From a virus, in IMG/VR virus record IMGVR_UViG_3300021977_000009, positions 1-20,423 of that record: a stretch of 20,423 nucleotides of DNA, one strand, 5' to 3'. Both the position numbers and the translations under genes were made by a program. Shown one piece after another: positions 2,992 through 20,423 of the stretch (position 1 is its first letter; every line of letters starts with the position of its first letter). The notes under the pieces were generated by a model. That model saw only the letters and a program-made list of their open reading frames with translations, did no database searches and was not told the origin of the DNA.

Positions 2992-3195
2992 TTAAATATT
3001 CCTTTGTTCTTGTTTTTTTAAAAATTCAATAATATGTTTTTTTGAATATCTTATAATTTTTCCAAATTTATAATGATTAATTTTTCCTTCCCATCTCCAT
3101 TTTTTCAAAGTATTTAAATGTACATTTAATAATTCTGCAACTTCTTTTTCAGTTAATAAAGAATTAAAATTTAATTTTTCAATTTTATCTATCAT
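2992..3195 (-). CDS. Small helix-turn-helix DNA-binding protein (excisionase/MerR-like)
   Basis: A 67-residue protein whose core, L-L-T-E-K-E-V-A-E-L-L-N-V-H-L-N-T-L-K-K-W with the following basic wing G-K-I-N-H-Y-K-F-G-K-I-I-R-Y, is the winged helix-turn-helix of the excisionase/MerR class. Nearly the whole protein is this domain, so it probably acts as a dimer or with a partner. It starts 10 bases after the late sigma factor gene with an AAAGGA site, which puts it in one transcript with the sigma factor. A role in switching phage transcription is plausible from context. No target site can be assigned. Confidence 0.75.
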   Translation of the reverse strand: MIDKIEKLNFNSLLTEKEVAELLNVHLNTLKKWRWEGKINHYKFGKIIRYSKKHIIEFLKKQEQRNI

Positions 3196-3205
3196 ATTTT
3201 ATCCT

Positions 3206-3892
3206 TTAAAGTAAATCTTCAATATTATTTTTTACAAATCCATCTGCATTTATATTTTGTGAATGTAATGTTAAATAAATATTATCATTATATTTTTCAA
3301 CTATTTTTTTAAGTTGTTCTTCTTCATTTTTAAATTGTTTTATTTTATTTTTTGCACCTGTAAAAGCAAATGTTGTTAAAAATGTAAATCCACCTTTTAA
3401 ATTTTCTTTTGTATCAAATTTATATTTAGGTTTCAAATATATTACATCATCATTTACAGTTACATTTGATTTCAATTTATTAAATAAAATAATTTGATAC
3501 TTATTATCATTAATTTTTTTGCATTCTTTTACAGTATAAGTTCTATTATGAATTTCAAGCATATCATATTTTTTAAAACATTTATTTGTATAAATTATAT
3601 TTGCTTTTTGTTTTGCATCCTCTACTAAATATTTATTTTTATCAATTACTTTATAATTATTTTTTACTCTAAAAGGTTTAAATTTCTTCCAATGAGTTAA
3701 AAATAAATGAACTCCTTCAGATTTCATTTCATCTTTTATTTTTCCATAATAACCTGCAAAGTTAGGTTTCATCAAAACTCTTTTTTGAATTTCTAAAAAT
3801 ATTTTTGCTAATTCATCTGACATTTTATTATTTTCAATATCTCTTAATAATATACTTGTAACATATTCATCATTTAAATATTCATTTTTCAT
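3206..3892 (-). CDS. Late-transcription sigma factor, T4 gp55-like, with an inserted domain
   Basis: A 228-residue protein. Residues 31-75 (F-L-E-I-Q-K-R, K-P-N-F-A-G-Y, D-E-M-K-S-E-G) follow the T4 gp55 pattern of a short sigma-2-like region: R-F-N-F-S-G-Y, Q-E-M-I-A-D-G, then an F-D/F-K-P turn. Residues 168-200 (G-G-F-T-F-L-T-T-F-A-F-T-G-A-K-N-K-I-K-Q) match the gp55 segment A-Y-I-T-Q-A-C-F-N-A-F-V-Q-R-I-K. In gp55 these segments lie close together; here about 90 beta-rich residues (76-167) separate them. The C-terminus N-I-E-D-L-L loosely recalls the sliding-clamp motif of gp55. The protein should direct host RNA polymerase to late promoters. The gene starts at an ATG with an AAAGGA site and follows the second tube-like gene by 23 bases. 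The assignment is from motifs recalled by eye. Confidence 0.62.
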   Translation of the reverse strand: MKNEYLNDEYVTSILLRDIENNKMSDELAKIFLEIQKRVLMKPNFAGYYGKIKDEMKSEGVHLFLTHWKKFKPFRVKNNYKVIDKNKYLVEDAKQKANIIYTNKCFKKYDMLEIHNRTYTVKECKKINDNKYQIILFNKLKSNVTVNDDVIYLKPKYKFDTKENLKGGFTFLTTFAFTGAKNKIKQFKNEEEQLKKIVEKYNDNIYLTLHSQNINADGFVKNNIEDLL

Positions 3893-3915: not shown

Positions 3916-4467
3916 TTATACAAATTGTAAGTCCCAATCAACTATAATAAATTCTACATCAAATGCTTGTAATGAATTATTTTCATAATCATTTACCCAT
4001 TTAGGTAAAGTTTTAGGAAATATTGTAAAATTTGAAACTAATTGATCATCACCATTATAATCATATCTGTTTAAAGAAAATGAAATACTATAATTATGTA
4101 AATTTGTTGGTTTTATGCCTACAAATCTTGTAATTCCAGCTAATTTTGCCCATTTATGAAAAAATCTATATATATTTCCTTGTTGATTATCAATAAAAGT
4201 AATTGATCCATTTGTAGGTTTTTTCCAACCTCTTGGATATTCTATATTAAAAAATGAAAAATAATCTATAGAACCTACTTCAATGTTACCTTCTTCAAAA
4301 TCTACTGATTTTACTAAAAATCTTTTTTTCTCACTGTCTGTATATATTAAATAATTTTCTAAAGATTGAACTTGTTCTCCGAATCCTAATATTTCAACGT
4401 AAAATCTTGAAGAAGATGATGGAATAAATCCTTTAGGTTTAAATTTTTTAAATGATACATCAGCCAT
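3916..4467 (-). CDS. Second tail-tube-like protein
   Basis: A 183-residue protein. F-N-I-E-Y-P-R-G-W and K-P-T-N-G-S-I-T-F-I-D in the middle, and F-P-K-T-L-P...S-L-Q-A-F-D-V-E-F-I-I-V-D-W at the end, give the pattern of a tail-tube/baseplate-tube fold (gp19 or gp54 type). It has its own promoter (4485-4514) behind the terminator of the main tube gene. A paralogue next to the tube could cap or initiate the tube, as gp54 does in T4, but a minor tube protein is equally possible. The ATG follows a TGAGGAAAT site. No terminator follows, so the sigma factor gene is probably co-transcribed. Confidence 0.62.
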   Translation of the reverse strand: MADVSFKKFKPKGFIPSSSSRFYVEILGFGEQVQSLENYLIYTDSEKKRFLVKSVDFEEGNIEVGSIDYFSFFNIEYPRGWKKPTNGSITFIDNQQGNIYRFFHKWAKLAGITRFVGIKPTNLHNYSISFSLNRYDYNGDDQLVSNFTIFPKTLPKWVNDYENNSLQAFDVEFIIVDWDLQFV

Positions 4468-4484: not shown

Positions 4485-4514
4485 ATTATATCAAAAAATT
4501 TTAAAAAATGTAAA
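4485..4514 (-). promoter_or_regulatory. Promoter with extended -10, overlapping a terminator U-tract
   Basis: On the minus strand TTTACA (4514-4509), an 18-base spacer and TGATATAAT. The -35 hexamer starts in the U-tract of the tail-tube terminator. It should drive the second tube-like gene, the late sigma factor gene and the helix-turn-helix gene. Confidence 0.65.
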
Positions 4515-4545
4515 AAGAAAAGAAAAAATTACCAAGCATCTTGGC
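4515..4545 (-). terminator. Intrinsic terminator of the tail tube gene
   Basis: On the minus strand GCCAAG, loop AUG, CUUGGU form a 6-bp stem (one G-U pair, 4531-4545), followed by AATTTTTTCTTTTC. The stem lies inside the last codons of the tube gene (Q-D-A-W) and the U-tract overlaps the stop. Confidence 0.75.
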
Positions 4546-5119
4546 CGTTTTTCATTCCTTCTTCATACATTGAATAAATAAATGTAAATTTATATTTAAA
4601 TGCAGCAGCTTCTTGACCTAAAGTTGCTTCAGGTTCAACTTTTGCAATTGCATCATAAAAAATCCATTGTTTTGTTTCTTCACCTTCATTATCTGCTAAT
4701 TTAACTACAATTTTAAATCTAACATCTTGATCTTTTTTCATATAATTGTTATCAGCCGCCATTGTAGCATCATTAACTTTACCAGTTGAACTAATACCTT
4801 TTGCCCAAATTCTTCTAATTTCTCTTGCAAGTTGTCCAACTTTTCCTGTAACATCTTCGTATGCAGAAAATGAAATTTCTCCGTTCTTTTTAGTTCTTCC
4901 ATAATATGTAAATGTAAATCCACCTACATTAACTTCAATTGTTTCATCTTCATTTGCAGGTGGTACACCTTCAATTTCTTCTGTTCTAAATTCAATTGCG
5001 GCATCTTTTAAATGATTTAATTTACCTTTTTCTACTGAAATTTCAATAATCCAGTTATGACTTGATTGAACTACTCCGATATGTTTTCTAAAATCTTGAA
5101 ACTTTCTTGGAAATCCCAT
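4529..5119 (-). CDS. Tail tube protein (T4 gp19-like)
   Basis: A 196-residue protein opening M-G-F-P-R-K-F-Q-D-F-R-K-H. A beta-rich body contains V-N-V-G-G-F-T-F-T-Y-Y-G-R-T and E-I-S-F-S-A-Y-E-D, followed by L-A-R-E-I-R-R-I-W-A-K and the final K-F-T-F-I-Y-S-M-Y-E-E-G-M. This layout, the size and the position directly after the tail sheath fit the tube that the sheath surrounds. GC-richer codons are used than in its neighbours, as also seen in the capsid and sheath genes, which suggests high expression. A TATAAAAA box lies 30 bases before the ATG (5142-5149), and terminators bound the gene on both sides, so it is probably its own transcript. Confidence 0.82.
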   Translation of the reverse strand: MGFPRKFQDFRKHIGVVQSSHNWIIEISVEKGKLNHLKDAAIEFRTEEIEGVPPANEDETIEVNVGGFTFTYYGRTKKNGEISFSAYEDVTGKVGQLAREIRRIWAKGISSTGKVNDATMAADNNYMKKDQDVRFKIVVKLADNEGEETKQWIFYDAIAKVEPEATLGQEAAAFKYKFTFIYSMYEEGMKNGQDAW

Positions 5120-5151: not shown

Positions 5152-5177
5152 TAAAAGCAAAACGGTAATTATACCGT
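5152..5177 (-). terminator. Intrinsic terminator of the tail sheath gene
   Basis: ACGGTA, loop TAAT, TACCGT on the minus strand (5162-5177), followed by TTTGCTTTT. The stop codon TAA falls in the loop. The C-G pairs stand out in this AT-rich DNA. Confidence 0.75.
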
Positions 5178-7775
5178 AATTGCTAAACTTCTATTAAATA
5201 CTGCTAAAGTAACTTTAATTTCATTAATATCCATTGTAGGCTTAATTCCTAAAAATATAGGAAGTCTTCTATTATCAATATCAAAATCTGTTGGATTAAC
5301 AACGCATTGGAATTCGTAAACACCTTCTTTAGCTTGAATTTCATTACTCATAAAGCTGTCAATTGTCGCCTTAATTCTATTCCAAGTTGCAGGATCATTA
5401 TAATTGAATAATTCATATTTTAAGTAATTTTCAAGTCCGTATCTAATTGCCATTAATAAGAATGCAACTGATCTTAATTGTAATGGACTAGGTTTTGCAT
5501 ACATTGTTCTGTTACCCCAAATAATTAATCCTTGTCCTTCTTTATAAATAATTGGATTAATTCTTGAATCTACAATTAAATCTAATTCACCATCACTAAA
5601 TTGATGTTTTAATTCTAATCCTAAAACTCTTCCTCTAACTAATCCTGCAGCAGGTGTGAATAATGTATAATTTCTATGAACATAATTTTGAGTTATTGCA
5701 CCATAAATACTTGGCGCAGTCCAAATATATTCTTTATTATATGGATCATATTGTTTTACCCAACCTGTAAATAATGATCCAAGATGAGTATTAATCATTA
5801 ATTTTTCAGCATATTCTCTTACTGCATTAAGTGGATTTGCACTTTCTTCAGCAGCAGGATCCATACTCCAATAACAATGTGTATTATTTTCACCTTGAGA
5901 CATTGCAACTCTTAACATTTCTTGTGCATATGCAGGAACTGCATATCCACCATCAACTAATAATTGAACTGGTGTTTTGTTATTATTTCCTAAAGTTCTT
6001 AATGCAAATATCATATTTGCTAAACTTACAGGTGAACCATTATCTGCACCGAACATATAATTTACACCTGCATCTAAAACTTTTCCAATTTTATCACCAA
6101 TTGCTAATTCATCACCAATATGTTCACCAATTAATGGATAATCTAAAATTGTATATGGAAAATATTGTTTTCCTTCTAAAATATGATTATCAATATCAGT
6201 TATTTTATTAAATTTGTAGATTTTCCAACCTTTTTCTTCAGCATCATCATATTCATAATCTCTTTGAATTGGTCTATCTACAAATATTTGATTATTGTCT
6301 GTATCAATATTTTCAATTGTATATTCTTCATAATAATCACTTCCATAAATTTGTTCATCTGTTGCATAATTAGGAAGTAATTTAATTGTATCTCCAATAT
6401 TTAAATTACCTAAATCAGATACAAAAATTTCTACATCACCTACAAATAAATCTTCTTTTGTTTCAATAACATTACCGTTACTATCTAATGCAGGTTTGAA
6501 AATTTTTTCTTCTTTTCTTCTCCAAATTGCATAATTAGTTGTTTTTGGATTTAGTGGAACACCGTCAACTGTTTTTGCAAGAATATTATCTTTTACTTGA
6601 ATATAATTTGAATTTCCATTTACTACTGTTTCAATGTATAATTTTTTTCCAAATCCATCTACAAATTCTGGATCTTTTGAAACTAACCATCTTTCAACTT
6701 CAACTCCATCTTCATAAACAACTAAATAAAATGCTTTCATATCTGGATAATCAGGTGATTTTTCAATTCCTATTTCAAGTGCATTATTCCATTCACCTGG
6801 ATTTACACCAGTTACTAAAAATGTAAACATTTGATTCCAAATTGAAACTTTTGTTACTTTATAAATTGTATCAGTACTTTTAATTGTTACAGGTTGTTTT
6901 GTTTTTACAAAGAATAAACTAATTTGATCTTTAAATTTTTGAATTGCAGTATCATCACTTTCAGATCCATCTGAATTTAATTTAACAATTTCATCACCAT
7001 CGTGGAATTCATCTGAATTTGCAACTACAATATATGGACTATCAACTGCATCAAGTAAAACTACAGTTGTTGCACCATTTGTTTTATTTTTAACTACATC
7101 ACCTTTTTTAACAGTCATTGTAGTTTGATTTCCATCTGAATCTACATCAAATACAATTCTGTCAAAAGGTTTTCTTTCTTCTACATCAACTACATCAACT
7201 ACATTGAATTTTTCAGCTTCTACATCATAATCAGTTAAAGGTGCATAATTAGGATTTGAACTAATTACAATTTTTTCACCTGCTTTAATATTTTTAGGTT
7301 CACCGTTTAATACAAATTCATATGTATTAATATAATCAGCACCCGGTTGATCTAACATTTTTTCAATTTGAATTTTTCCAGGTTCTTGTATAAATAAAAA
7401 TTTATCATATTCTTCTTGGGTTAATCCTGCAGGTAAAGGCTCAACTACTCTTTTAATATTATCTGAATATTTATCTCCAATTTCAAAATTTCCACCTCTA
7501 ACAAGAACTCCACCATATTTAATATCATCAGATGCAGCTCTTACTACCCATAATTTATCAGTATATTTACTTAACCAAACAGCTCCATTAGTTTCTGGAT
7601 ATCTTAAATCAGGAATTCCAAATTTATCAATTAATTCATTTTCACCTGTAATTAAAATAGGTTTATTTACAGGACCTTTTCTAAATCTTCCTACAATTCC
7701 TGTATAAATACCTGCTAAACTTTGAATAACAGCAGATCTATCTTGTGTAGCAAATATTACTTTTGCAGCTCCCAT
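5169..7775 (-). CDS. Tail sheath protein (T4 gp18-like)
   Basis: An 868-residue contractile sheath protein. The N-terminus (S-L-A-G-I-Y-T-G-I-V-G-R-F-R-K-G-P) and G-A-V-W-L-S-K-Y-T-D-K-L-W-V-V-R-A-A match the sheath N-terminal domain. The C-terminal 220 residues carry T-P-A-A-G-L-V-R-G-R, G-L-I-I-W-G-N-R-T, L-R-S-V-A-F-L-L-M-A-I and an ending like the conserved sheath handshake strand. It is longer than T4 gp18 (about 660). The extra length lies in a beta-rich middle (roughly residues 130-560), probably decorating domains on the outside. It starts 2 bases after the 63-residue gene with an AAAGGATAATT site, so it shares a transcript with the neck genes. Confidence 0.9.
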   Translation of the reverse strand: MGAAKVIFATQDRSAVIQSLAGIYTGIVGRFRKGPVNKPILITGENELIDKFGIPDLRYPETNGAVWLSKYTDKLWVVRAASDDIKYGGVLVRGGNFEIGDKYSDNIKRVVEPLPAGLTQEEYDKFLFIQEPGKIQIEKMLDQPGADYINTYEFVLNGEPKNIKAGEKIVISSNPNYAPLTDYDVEAEKFNVVDVVDVEERKPFDRIVFDVDSDGNQTTMTVKKGDVVKNKTNGATTVVLLDAVDSPYIVVANSDEFHDGDEIVKLNSDGSESDDTAIQKFKDQISLFFVKTKQPVTIKSTDTIYKVTKVSIWNQMFTFLVTGVNPGEWNNALEIGIEKSPDYPDMKAFYLVVYEDGVEVERWLVSKDPEFVDGFGKKLYIETVVNGNSNYIQVKDNILAKTVDGVPLNPKTTNYAIWRRKEEKIFKPALDSNGNVIETKEDLFVGDVEIFVSDLGNLNIGDTIKLLPNYATDEQIYGSDYYEEYTIENIDTDNNQIFVDRPIQRDYEYDDAEEKGWKIYKFNKITDIDNHILEGKQYFPYTILDYPLIGEHIGDELAIGDKIGKVLDAGVNYMFGADNGSPVSLANMIFALRTLGNNNKTPVQLLVDGGYAVPAYAQEMLRVAMSQGENNTHCYWSMDPAAEESANPLNAVREYAEKLMINTHLGSLFTGWVKQYDPYNKEYIWTAPSIYGAITQNYVHRNYTLFTPAAGLVRGRVLGLELKHQFSDGELDLIVDSRINPIIYKEGQGLIIWGNRTMYAKPSPLQLRSVAFLLMAIRYGLENYLKYELFNYNDPATWNRIKATIDSFMSNEIQAKEGVYEFQCVVNPTDFDIDNRRLPIFLGIKPTMDINEIKVTLAVFNRSLAITV

Positions 7776-11240: not shown

Positions 11241-11257
11241 TTTTAAATTATTTAAAA
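11241..11257 (-). repeat. 17-base palindrome TTTTAAATAATTTAAAA, copy 1
   Basis: Perfect inverted repeat around a central base, overlapping the stop codon of the endonuclease gene, 11 bases before the next ATG. An exact copy lies at 18541-18557 and a one-mismatch copy at 14465-14481, all at gene junctions. The A+T-only composition makes chance possible. Confidence 0.35.
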
Positions 11258-12960
11258 ATATATTTTTTATAATATTTAAAATTACCTGCATCATAAATAA
11301 TTCTATATCCATTATTAAAAATATTTTCTTTTGCAGATAAATTTTCATTATAATTATTTAAAATATTTTTTAATTTATGTTTTTGAAATTTTATTCTATG
11401 ATATAAATTTAATTCATCATTAAATACATAAAAATTCGGTTCAATTATTTTTTCCAATTTCATAAATTTTTGATAAACATTATTTTTATATACCCATCTT
11501 CTATTTCCAAAAGATATTAATTTTTTAATATTTAATTTTTCAATATAATTATTTTCAAAATATTTTAAAAATTTACCAAATAACCCTCTTATAGTTGTAT
11601 ATTTTTTTGATGCAAATCTGATTAATTCATATTCATTATTTTTAAATCTACTTTTACCAAATGTCATAACAGCTAATAATTCATTATTAATAAAAAATCC
11701 TAATTTTATTTTTGATTCTGAATAACCTTGTAAATGATTTTCTTTTAAAAATTGTCTTGCTATTTTTGTATCAATTTCTTTTATAATTCCATCTCTTGCA
11801 TTGTATTTTTTAATTTTATTTGATTTCAATTTTAATAATATTTTACTTTTCCAAATATCTCGTTTTATTTCATCTAACCATTCATTTGAAAAAATATGAA
11901 ATAAATGAATATCATTTTGTTCACATAATTTTGTTTTTTCTAAATGATAATTTTTATCAATATTTTTGAAAAAAGTATGATTTCCTTGTGAATGAAAAAA
12001 TATACCATCATATTCAATTGCAAATTTAAATTCAGGAATATAAATATCAAGTTCTTTATTATGAATTATTTTTCTTGTATTTGTTAAAATTTCACCATTA
12101 TAATTTTCTTTAATAAATTCTAAAATTTCTTTTTCTTTAGAATTTTTTAATTTTCCATTAATATTATAATCGTGTATAATTTTATATGTAAAACTATCTG
12201 AAATATTAAAATATTCTTTTATTTTTTTAAAATTAATAATTCCATTTTCAATAAAATTTTCTTCAATAAATTTTTTATTAAAATTTTCATAATTTTTAAT
12301 ATGTTCTTTAGTATGATGATTATTTTTATATTTTTCTAATTGAAAAATTGAATTTACACCGTATTTATTTTGAATATTTTTTACAAATAAATTTTTATAT
12401 TTATCATTTTTCATATGATTTTCAAATCCATATTTTTTTAAACAAGTTTCTTGTGCTTTTTTTCTATTATTGTAATTTTCATTCCCGTATTTTTTTAAAC
12501 AAGTTTGTTTTCTTTTTTCTGATATGATTTTAGCTTTTTCAGAAACTTTCTTACCTCTAATTTGATTTAATTCTTTATTATTAGATGAACATTTATAAGA
12601 ACAAAATTTAATTTCTTCTTTAAAAGGATTATAAAATTTATTTTCTGAAATATATTTATCAAATAAATTTTTTCCACAAGTTAAACATTTAGGTTCTTCT
12701 AAACCTTTTTTATTCCAAATCCATCTAATTATTTTTGTTTTAATTGAATCTTCTATAATAAAATTTGAATTTTTAAATTTTAATGTTTCAATATTAATTA
12801 ATTCATTAATATATTTTTCATCAAAATTATTATTTTTAATTTTATTCAAACAATATAATTTTTTATGAGTATTATTACAAAATAATTTATTATCAAATTT
12901 TTGAAGATTTTTTTTATATTTTATTTCAGATTTACAATAAGAACAAATCCCGTAAGACAT
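11248..12960 (-). CDS. Free-standing homing endonuclease (VSR-like/EDxHD type)
   Basis: A 570-residue protein. Two zinc-finger-like sites open it (C6-x2-C9...C28-x3-H32 and C92-x2-C95...C120-x3-C124). Three K-Y-G-x-x-N units (two as C-L-K-K-Y-G) follow, typical of phage homing endonucleases. The nuclease core reads E-L-D-I-Y-I-P-E-F-K-F-A-I-E-Y-D-G-I-F-F-H, like the EDxHD/VSR family (I-Bth0305I type). A C-terminal domain has L-L-A-V-M-T-F-G-K-S-R and G-N-R-R-W. It probably cuts related phages lacking the element and copies itself in. It lies directly behind the capsid gene with its own promoter (12990-13018) and heads the transcript of the three next genes. The ATG follows a GAAGGAATT site. 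Confidence 0.85.
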   Translation of the reverse strand: MSYGICSYCKSEIKYKKNLQKFDNKLFCNNTHKKLYCLNKIKNNNFDEKYINELINIETLKFKNSNFIIEDSIKTKIIRWIWNKKGLEEPKCLTCGKNLFDKYISENKFYNPFKEEIKFCSYKCSSNNKELNQIRGKKVSEKAKIISEKRKQTCLKKYGNENYNNRKKAQETCLKKYGFENHMKNDKYKNLFVKNIQNKYGVNSIFQLEKYKNNHHTKEHIKNYENFNKKFIEENFIENGIINFKKIKEYFNISDSFTYKIIHDYNINGKLKNSKEKEILEFIKENYNGEILTNTRKIIHNKELDIYIPEFKFAIEYDGIFFHSQGNHTFFKNIDKNYHLEKTKLCEQNDIHLFHIFSNEWLDEIKRDIWKSKILLKLKSNKIKKYNARDGIIKEIDTKIARQFLKENHLQGYSESKIKLGFFINNELLAVMTFGKSRFKNNEYELIRFASKKYTTIRGLFGKFLKYFENNYIEKLNIKKLISFGNRRWVYKNNVYQKFMKLEKIIEPNFYVFNDELNLYHRIKFQKHKLKNILNNYNENLSAKENIFNNGYRIIYDAGNFKYYKKYIFK

Positions 12961-14463: not shown

Positions 14464-14471
14464 TTTTTATA
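14464..14471 (-). promoter_or_regulatory. Candidate late promoter box before the capsid gene
   Basis: TATAAAAA on the minus strand begins 29 bases before the capsid ATG. It is one base away from the T4 late consensus TATAAATA and equals the box before the tail tube gene. It lies in the one-mismatch copy of the 17-base palindrome. Confidence 0.4.
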
Positions 14472-14497
14472 TTATTTAAAATTATTTAATTTTTTTA

Positions 14498-18540: not shown

Positions 18541-18557
18541 TTTTAAATTATTTAAAA
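18541..18557 (-). repeat. 17-base palindrome TTTTAAATAATTTAAAA, copy 2
   Basis: Exact second copy of the palindrome at 11241-11257. It overlaps the terminase stop codon, 17 bases before the portal ATG. No clear terminator or promoter is otherwise seen in this gap. Confidence 0.35.
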
Positions 18558-20144
18558 CTTTAAATAATCAATTTCTTTACTTTTAAATTGTAATAATTCA
18601 TTATATATTTCATCATCAGATTTTATTTTTGTTTTAATTGTAAGTTCATTTATGAAGTTTTCATTTTCAAAAGGAGACGCAGGAATTTGCTGAAAGTTAT
18701 AGAGAGCATTTGCAAGTGCATCAGCAATATCTTTTGATATCATTAAATTTCTTTGTTTTAATATTTCAATATTTGATTTTACATCTTGTAAATGATCTAT
18801 TTTCTTTTCAGTTTCAATTAATGATGTTAATTCCTCTTTTAAAATTTTATTATCAGGTAATGCAATTCTTTCTTCTTCAATTGCATATTTTAATGTATAA
18901 TATGCTTTTTTATCTCTATCAACTGAATATTGTTTTACATTATAACCTTCATTTTGTAAAATTTGTTGTGTATCAACTGACTGAAAACCGTCCATTACAA
19001 TTAATTCAATTTCAAATCCAATTTCTTTTAAATCTCTAATAAAATCTCTTATTTTTTCAAGTCTAATTTTTTTAGCAGGATTTTCAGGTAACATTGCAAT
19101 TGCTAAATCAGCCCAATATACAAAATCTTCATATGTTCCCAATTTTCCTGCAATTTCTCTTTCAATTTTTTTAACTGATCTTCTATGTAACATAACAAAT
19201 CCAAGTCTATCTCTATTTAATCCAAAATCAATTCCAATTACTCTTTTTTGTTTTAATCCAAATTTTATTAAATTATTGATATCAAAATTATCTATAATTT
19301 TTTCTGATACTTTATCTGAAACTAATATATAATCTTTATTATATAATTTTGTTAAACTCATTACTTTATTTAATAAAGTTTTATCTTTTATAAATGTTTT
19401 AGTATTTATAGTAGGTTTTCCTAAAACATCTTGAATACCTGCATAGATATTTACAATAAATTCTTGTTTATGTTCAATAGGTACTTCAAAAATTTTATTA
19501 GGATCTATATCTATTGCTTTTTGTAAATCTTCTTCAGTTTCAATTATAAAAGGATCTGCATCATAAGTTCCTATAAATACTTTAAATTTTTTACCAGAAT
19601 ATTGAATTTTATGTTTCAAAACTTCAAATCTTGCAGGATTAATTATTTCAATACTTTCTTTCATCTCCTCAAATTGTTCTTTAATTTTTTCAATTAAAGA
19701 ATTTTCAGTTTGAGCAGATGAAATTACAAAATAATGGCCAGGCCATTTATTACCTTTTAATAAAAATCTTGAGTTAATTCTGTTAATCATTTCTGTAACT
19801 AAATCAAAACTTCCACCTTTTACTACTTCTTGATTAATTTCATCTGAAATTGCACTAAAAACATCTCTACCTACTAATTGTCTTTTTCTACTTGCAATTT
19901 TTATATCTATATTTTTTTCAAATAATGTTCTTCCTGTTTTTGAAAAGTGTTCCACAAAAAATGGACTTTCTCTAATAATTGCCATCATTGGGTCATAATT
20001 AATAGACTCAGCAGTTTCTAATGAACTGTTTGTAAGCATAAATATGATTTTTGTAGTGTCAGGTAATTTAAATTCTGCTTGAGGATTTTTTAAATGTAAA
20101 ACTCTACAAATATCATATAGAAGAGCATATGTAGATATTTTTGT
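18552..20144 (-). CDS. Large terminase subunit, C-terminal extein (partial; N-terminal part outside window)
   Basis: The DNA-packaging motor, 530 residues visible. The first residue T-K-I-S-T-Y-A-L-L-Y-D continues a Walker A motif (expected G-x-G-K before T) that the intein interrupts. A Walker B-like segment V-F-S-A-I-S-D-E-I-N-Q-E and the coupling motif Y-F-V-I-S-S-A-Q follow. The RNase H-like nuclease shows its acidic residues in G-I-D-F-G, V-M-D-G-F and K-D-I-A-D-A-L-A-N-A-L. The ATPase pumps DNA into the prohead through the portal encoded next, and the nuclease cuts the concatemer. The part before the K|T junction lies beyond the right edge. Confidence 0.92.
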   Translation of the reverse strand, partial: TKISTYALLYDICRVLHLKNPQAEFKLPDTTKIIFMLTNSSLETAESINYDPMMAIIRESPFFVEHFSKTGRTLFEKNIDIKIASRKRQLVGRDVFSAISDEINQEVVKGGSFDLVTEMINRINSRFLLKGNKWPGHYFVISSAQTENSLIEKIKEQFEEMKESIEIINPARFEVLKHKIQYSGKKFKVFIGTYDADPFIIETEEDLQKAIDIDPNKIFEVPIEHKQEFIVNIYAGIQDVLGKPTINTKTFIKDKTLLNKVMSLTKLYNKDYILVSDKVSEKIIDNFDINNLIKFGLKQKRVIGIDFGLNRDRLGFVMLHRRSVKKIEREIAGKLGTYEDFVYWADLAIAMLPENPAKKIRLEKIRDFIRDLKEIGFEIELIVMDGFQSVDTQQILQNEGYNVKQYSVDRDKKAYYTLKYAIEEERIALPDNKILKEELTSLIETEKKIDHLQDVKSNIEILKQRNLMISKDIADALANALYNFQQIPASPFENENFINELTIKTKIKSDDEIYNELLQFKSKEIDYLKF

Positions 20145-20423
20145 ATTATGATGAATTGAACCATCAGGAGTAATATATAAATGAGGAGATTCAATAAATA
20201 AATCATATACAATATCATTTCTTAAAAATTCTTTTTTTATAATTTTATAACTTTTTCCATCTATATTATCAATATATTTAGCGTTTTTTATTTTTACAAA
20301 TTTATTTTTTTCTTGAATGATATGATTATCTGAAAGATATAATTCAGAATTATTTTCTAAAGTTATTTTATAAATATCTGATTTTTTAGTCACTAAACTT
20401 TTTATCTTTGATTTTCCATTAGG
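20145..20423 (-). CDS. C-terminal part of an intein inside the terminase (partial at the window edge)
   Basis: The frame is open to the edge of the window. S-D-I-Y-K-I-T-L-E-N-N-S-E-L-Y-L-S-D-N-H matches Hint block B (L-S-D-N-H for the usual T-x-D-H), and V-Y-D-L-F-I-E-S-P-H-L-Y-I-T matches block F. It ends D-G-S-I-H-H-N just before Thr, which is the classical intein C-terminus (His-Asn, then a +1 Thr). Only about 30 residues separate blocks B and F, so no homing endonuclease domain is present: a mini-intein. It would splice itself out to rebuild the terminase. Block A is outside the window. A GTG at 20393 is not a real start, since the frame continues upstream. Confidence 0.88.

Follow-up and report, generated by a model that had tools for sequence, protein, structure and literature searches.

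The locus described here raises the question of whether a phage late sigma factor of the T4 gp55 type can carry a folded domain within its sigma-2-like core, the part that binds RNA polymerase and the −10 box, and, if so, what such a domain would do there. The stretch of DNA analysed (the window) is a virus contig of 20.4 kb (20,423 nucleotides, 22% G+C). A first-pass annotation, made from the sequence before any database was searched, had suggested that one of its predicted proteins resembles gp55 in two separate parts (residues 31–75 and 168–200), and that these are split by about 90 residues with beta-strand character. Below, we describe what is known about the identity of this protein, the position and predicted fold of the insert, its occurrence in related phages and the promoter elements found alongside it, before considering what the insert might do.

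The gene and its assignment to gp55

The open reading frame is intact, begins with ATG, has TTAAAGGAATAATTT immediately upstream and starts 23 bases past the stop codon of a tail-tube-like gene. It lies in a virion block of the T4 type: the terminase, a portal-like gene, a prohead-protease-like gene, a Gp23-type major capsid protein and the sheath are encoded here together with two tube-like genes and, besides gp55, an HTH_17 protein and a gp39 topoisomerase in two pieces; the portal and prohead-protease labels are assigned by position alone. The two consecutive tail-tube-like genes between sheath and gp55 (3916–4467 and 4529–5119, minus strand) give weak PHROG tail-tube matches (E=0.02 and 0.003). 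The sheath gene (5169–7775, minus) encodes 868 residues, compared with roughly 600 in the relatives RHph_TM30 and IME392, and the extra length apparently comes from insertions in its middle. Directly after gp55 is the HTH_17 protein (67 residues; 2992–3195, minus), which occupies the same place in the related contigs L001, L002, L170 and L171 and could be a partner of the late sigma factor in regulation. The gp39-type topoisomerase II large subunit (241–2388, minus) is divided into two open reading frames (1657–2388 and 241–1314), separated by a 99-residue hydrophobic one (1311–1610), and L001 is arranged alike. A homing-endonuclease-like gene of 570 residues (11248–12960, minus; phrog_3339, E=5e-102) comes after the major capsid gene and has its own host-type promoter, TTTACA-N17-TATAAT. 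The first ~85 residues of the terminase large-subunit open reading frame (18552–20393, minus) resemble an intein C-terminus (...SPHLYITPDGSIHHN/TKIS), the match to Pfam Intein_splicing being weak (E=0.095) and the sequence being cut by the window edge.

The PHROG 234 profile ('late sigma transcription factor') matches residues 18–80 of the protein (E=4.6e-7), while searches of Pfam and NCBIfam gave no match. Against an HMM built from ten gp55 proteins of phage records, the two halves joined together (75/165) score 50.7 bits, the N-terminal half alone 39.8 bits and the intact protein 30.6 bits, and the split first suggested is thus confirmed. The best single deletion among those tried removes residues 79–167 (55.9 bits); the limits of 76–167 given in the first-pass annotation were off by no more than a few residues. 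The joined score was reached by none of 2000 shuffles of the C-terminal half and by none of 1616 tails cut from other proteins of the window, and a chance likeness to gp55 was rejected on these controls. In a sequence search of the PDB with a four-member profile, T4 gp55 ranked first, at E=0.09 only. Among isolated phages, direct tblastn gives only weak matches (best E about 2), and it found no carrier of the insert there, whether the query was the whole protein, the insert segment or the protein of L171; in 50,697 phage records, the insert is covered by no match. No relative of the protein was found in bacterial and archaeal genome contigs. PHROG 234 was not detected in the capsid-related isolates RHph_TM30, phiLo, 1.031.O and IME392, which is not proof of its absence from them, and the literature searched (open-licence papers) contains no report of such an insertion.

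Table 1. Coordinates in the window of the late sigma factor gene, its parts and the promoter elements.
Feature	Position	Strand	Extent	Evidence
gp55-type late sigma factor with inserted domain	3206..3892	minus	228 aa + stop	ORF, phrog_234, joined-halves HMM, AF2 model
N-terminal half, sigma region 2.1/2.2-like helices	3659..3892	minus	residues 1–78	HMM score alone; T4 alignment
Inserted beta-barrel domain (predicted)	3392..3658	minus	residues 79–167, strands 80 to 155	best-scoring deletion; pLDDT about 96; PDB barrel matches
C-terminal half, region 2.3/2.4 long helix + extension	3263..3391	minus	residues 168–210	shuffle control; helix 168–210; alignments
Disordered C-tail (predicted), ending hydrophobic-acidic NNIEDLL	3209..3262	minus	residues 211–228	pLDDT under 50; variants; fast-evolving
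Host-type promoter TTTACA-N18-TATAAT, upstream of tube2-gp55	4485..4514	minus		
Candidate late-promoter element TTTAAATAAT, upstream of major capsid gene	14471..14480	minus		
Candidate late-promoter element TTTAAATAAT, upstream of portal-like gene; overlaps terminase stop codon	18547..18556	minus		
Candidate late-promoter element TTTAAATAAT, upstream of 96-aa gene; overlaps endonuclease stop codon	11247..11256	minus		

Predicted fold and point of insertion

An AlphaFold2 model made with seven homologues has a mean pLDDT of 86, with a higher value in the insert (Table 1). It places three main sigma helices at residues 8–21, 26–40 and 50–70 and the long helix after the insert; the insert itself is modelled with six strands (80–86, 99–102, 111–114, 117–128, 131–136 and 150–155), in agreement with the beta-strand character noticed at the outset. 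The top row for the model in VIA-align is T4 gp55 in its open complex (7d7c_F; Z 12.4, rmsd 2.5, 115 aligned residues, model 5–212), and what was found is therefore not a continuous fold of another family. Profile, structural and comparative evidence together support an inserted domain within a sigma-2-like core. Most of the model also aligns with two BFVD entries, A0A8S5VU51 (248 aa) and A0A6J7XBX4 (207 aa, labelled 'RNA polymerase sigma factor'), which might likewise contain an insert.

In T4 gp55, E70, D74 and E77 contact the beta-prime clamp helices, and N13, L54, R57, F86, H95, Y97 and T99 line the pockets for the flipped-out bases −12, −9 and −8 (PMC7892883). By alignment, the clamp-contact positions correspond to E55, E59 and H62, so that two acids are kept and the third is a histidine; in L170 and L171, the middle acid alone is kept. 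The pocket positions correspond, in the same order, to D8, V39, K42, F71, F169, F171 and T173, of which F71 and T173 are identical, V39, K42 and F171 are conservative, and D8 and F169 differ. T4 R114, which holds the template strand, corresponds to K188, invariant in alignment A7. Since F71 and F169 correspond to T4 F86 and H95, the insert sits between two residues of the −10 pocket. The point of insertion is the loop that joins the helices of regions 2.2 and 2.3, which is naturally variable in length (8–28 residues in relatives), so that no helix is broken. With a net charge of +7 to +9 over about 88 residues, the barrel resembles the window's HTH protein and endonuclease and differs from most virion proteins encoded there, although this is a weak argument because lysine is common in an AT-rich genome. 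The C-tail ends in NNIEDLL, NNIEDLF, QNIGEIL or RDLKDFL in the variants; judged by sequence, it is a putative sliding-clamp-binding motif, resembling that of gp55 in place and style only.

The protein is almost certainly a gp55-type late sigma factor with an inserted barrel. Were it some other helical protein with an accidental likeness to gp55, the empty Pfam and NCBIfam searches and the weak direct tblastn hits would be readily understood; this is exceedingly improbable, however, given the PHROG and HMM scores with their shuffle controls, the rank of T4 gp55 as the top structural match and the finding that gp55 proteins of sister phages, which have no barrel, match phrog_234 over almost their whole length (E=4e-11 and 1e-9). 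Hardly more credible is the suggestion that the insert is selfish or artefactual, be it an intein, the remnant of an intron, a frameshift or an assembly chimera. The presence of a homing endonuclease gene and a weak intein-like end in the same window might be thought to favour it, but the insert is in frame and without stops, is too short (about 89 residues) for an intein with a Hint fold, and is carried by five contigs from several metagenomes. Added to this is the absence, from the edges of the insert in the aligned variants, of the residues needed for intein splicing (Cys, Ser or Thr after the junctions and His-Asn at the right edge), and the prediction of a barrel other than the Hint fold. 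It is on the absent splice residues and the presence in five contigs that an intein, intron or assembly artefact was rejected.

Distribution of the insert, loop length and promoter elements

The five contigs are the window, L001, L002, L170 and L171, with identities to the window of 99, 89, 63 and 63%, respectively; this clade is known here from metagenome contigs alone, and the genomes are partial. Some handles denote the same material: L170 is the same contig as L021, L167 the same contig as L159, and L168/L169 the same protein as L161. Among 191 gp55 hits, the loop has 8 residues in 140, 9 in 3, 13–15 in 33, 27–28 in 9 (three distinct contigs) and 99 in 6 (two distinct contigs), and it has 97 in the window. 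Loops of 27–28 residues occur in the sister phages L167 and L168/L169, whose capsid proteins are 44–51% identical. A model of the L167 gp55 is closest to T4 gp55 (Z 13.3) and next to bacterial sigma region 2, with the loop as a low-confidence hairpin. The start of the insert (NNYKVIDKNKYLVED, its first ~15 residues) aligns with this sister hairpin (NFTQRNGELFYKED), and it is therefore simplest to regard the barrel as having been added onto the hairpin. As far as sequence comparison goes, the barrel is probably an elaborated beta-hairpin, one still present in simple form in the sister phages.

The barrel is under purifying selection (dN/dS 0.29–0.45), the hairpin part and the C-tail being looser and fast-evolving, and invariant stretches such as NRTY-VKECKK are kept in contigs that differ at 37% of residues. 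An HMM of the insert, run against the open reading frames of the fetched loci, found nothing convincing except gp55 itself. The idea that the barrel derives from the sheath of this phage (hhalign probability 0.1) or from any other protein of the window (at most 2.6) found no support in sequence.

Upstream of the tube2-gp55 genes is a host-type promoter (Table 1). Its TATAAT, together with ACATTTTTT farther upstream, is conserved in L001, L002, L170 and L171; the arrangement TTTACA/TTAACA-N17/18-TATAAT is kept across the clade. A promoter of this type would be expected where production of the late sigma factor depends on that of the host. A different element was found by de novo counting of 8-mers in the upstream regions of three non-identical members of the capsid clade (the window, L021 and L022). 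Ranked first, beside Shine-Dalgarno words, is TTTAAATA, which occurs in 11 of the 30 regions compared with 2.1 expected, its reverse complement occurring in one; the longer TTTAAATAAT has 14 sense copies and no antisense copy in upstream regions (shuffle mean 0.64, maximum 4). These counts are affected by the relatedness of the contigs (the window and L020 being near-identical), by the 78% A+T content and by the overlap of some copies with stop codons. A copy of TTTAAATAAT is also present upstream of the capsid gene in L020–L023. The T4 box, TATAAATA, has no sense copies in the upstream regions of the clade and is not enriched, and is an unlikely late box of these phages. In the sisters L028, L032 and L049, TATAAATA is strongly biased to the sense strand, and L048, L030 and L024 have ATTAAATA instead; TAAATA is common to all three words. 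The late boxes of known T4 relatives also vary, at −13/−12 (PMC2988020).

We infer that TTTAAATA may be read by the barrel-carrying sigma factor, which makes the two a candidate pair. It should be noted that L028, L032 and L049 have no gp55 on their contigs and that, among the clade members counted for promoter words, a barrel gp55 was seen only in the window and L021; for this reason, the change of promoter and the barrel cannot be linked. In the sister phage L027/L087/L167 (IMGVR_UViG_3300026484_000001), which has a hairpin gp55, another upstream word, TGTACGGTATAATA, is over-represented (4 of 27 regions), and is possibly that phage's own late or middle promoter.

The role of the barrel and comparison with known systems

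As an orthologue of T4 gp55, the protein would bind the beta-prime clamp helices of the host RNA polymerase with its region 2.2 helix, read a −10-like box (TTTAAATA in this clade) with the pockets of its region 2.3 helix, and use its long last helix to hold the template strand. The positively charged barrel, at the mouth of the promoter pocket, might then touch DNA, either the non-template strand or the duplex beside it, or else the RNA polymerase surface opposite, and such contact would stabilise the open complex and tune the choice of late promoter. Cellular sigma factors share these tasks with region 1.2, which gp55 lacks, and it is conceivable that the barrel replaces it. Taken as a whole, a gp55 orthologue whose barrel braces the open promoter and tunes late-promoter choice is the best explanation, and we give it slightly better than an even chance. 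Contact with promoter DNA or polymerase as the main job of the barrel, which its place at the pocket mouth and its basic charge favour, falls a little short of even; it counts against contact with DNA that barrels of the same fold in virion proteins and enzymes are not DNA-binding. It is rather doubtful that the sigma-2 core gained a DNA-contacting barrel stepwise from the loop hairpin and that the late promoter changed in parallel from TATAAATA to TTTAAATA.

The main rival to DNA or polymerase contact is that the barrel is a protein-docking module, whether for a gp33-like or sliding-clamp protein acting as phage co-activator, a host factor or an anti-sigma-like regulator. In its favour are the compactness and conservation of the insert and the purifying selection on it; barrels like it serve as protein-contact modules in virion proteins, and insertions in loops are often docking sites. 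The barrel is, however, basic and beside the DNA-reading pocket, and no partner gene was identified in the partial genome; on balance, we regard docking as possible but on the unlikely side. Less probable again is a structural or nearly neutral barrel, a tolerated expansion of the loop that would stiffen the sigma-2 fold, for example against heat. Loop length does vary across the family, and the hairpin part does evolve fast, but the dN/dS values and the invariant stretch, kept despite the divergence of the contigs, are not what a merely tolerated insert would be expected to show.

Were a DNA-contacting barrel gained in that stepwise way, the 2.2/2.3 loop would give the sigma-2 domain a second module in contact with the promoter. 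A folded domain is accepted exactly between two promoter-pocket residues, and the loop intermediates (8, 13–15, 27–28 and 97–99 residues) make a route of domain gain visible. Should the barrel touch DNA or polymerase, a module for promoter opening can be accommodated in the 2.2/2.3 loop, and the role played elsewhere by region 1.2 becomes directly testable. Such gp55 genes also escape Pfam, NCBIfam and plain BLAST. The gp55-type late sigma factor itself is already known; what is new here is the beta-barrel of ~89 residues in the 2.2/2.3 loop.

T4 gp55 (PHROG 234; PDB 7d7c/7d7d) and the window protein share the order of the sigma-2 helices and the long final helix, and resemble each other in part in the clamp-helix acids, the aromatic and threonine residues of the pockets and the hydrophobic C-tail. 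They differ in that T4 has 8 residues where the window protein has 97, in three of the aligned positions (N13 to D8, H95 to F169 and E77 to H62), and in the promoter element, for which the clade's candidate is TTTAAATA and T4 has TATAAATA. The hairpin-loop gp55 proteins of the sisters L167 and L168/L169 are about 28–39% identical and have the same core and site residues, but their loop is modelled as a beta-hairpin, at low confidence, with no barrel. In AR9 gp226, a sigma-like subunit of a jumbo-phage RNA polymerase, a sigma-2-like loop carries extra structure that changes how the promoter is read (PMC9209446), and by analogy it may serve as a precedent for the window protein. The extra structure in AR9 gp226 is a short helix between regions 2.1 and 2.2, whereas that in the window protein is a whole barrel between 2.2 and 2.3; AR9 gp226 also differs in working on template-strand uracil promoters with a phage-encoded polymerase.

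The fold of the insert resembles that of beta-barrels in virion proteins, namely the K1 lyase tailspike (7w1d), the Mystique tail tube (9n71), the JBD30 baseplate (8rk3), the Chi tail tip (8vjh) and T5 Dit, with Z about 6.5–9.4 over about 70–77 residues. Taken alone (residues 82–153), it matches the K1 lyase tailspike best (Z 9.4, rmsd 1.7, 71 residues); it matches T5 Dit, GH110 enzymes and the barrels at the N-termini of rotary ATPases more weakly. No sequence relation to the insert was detected for the virion barrels or for the phage's own sheath (hhalign probability 0.1), and a shared fold of the barrel's size shows no function. The virion barrel modules, unlike the insert, are parts of the virion.
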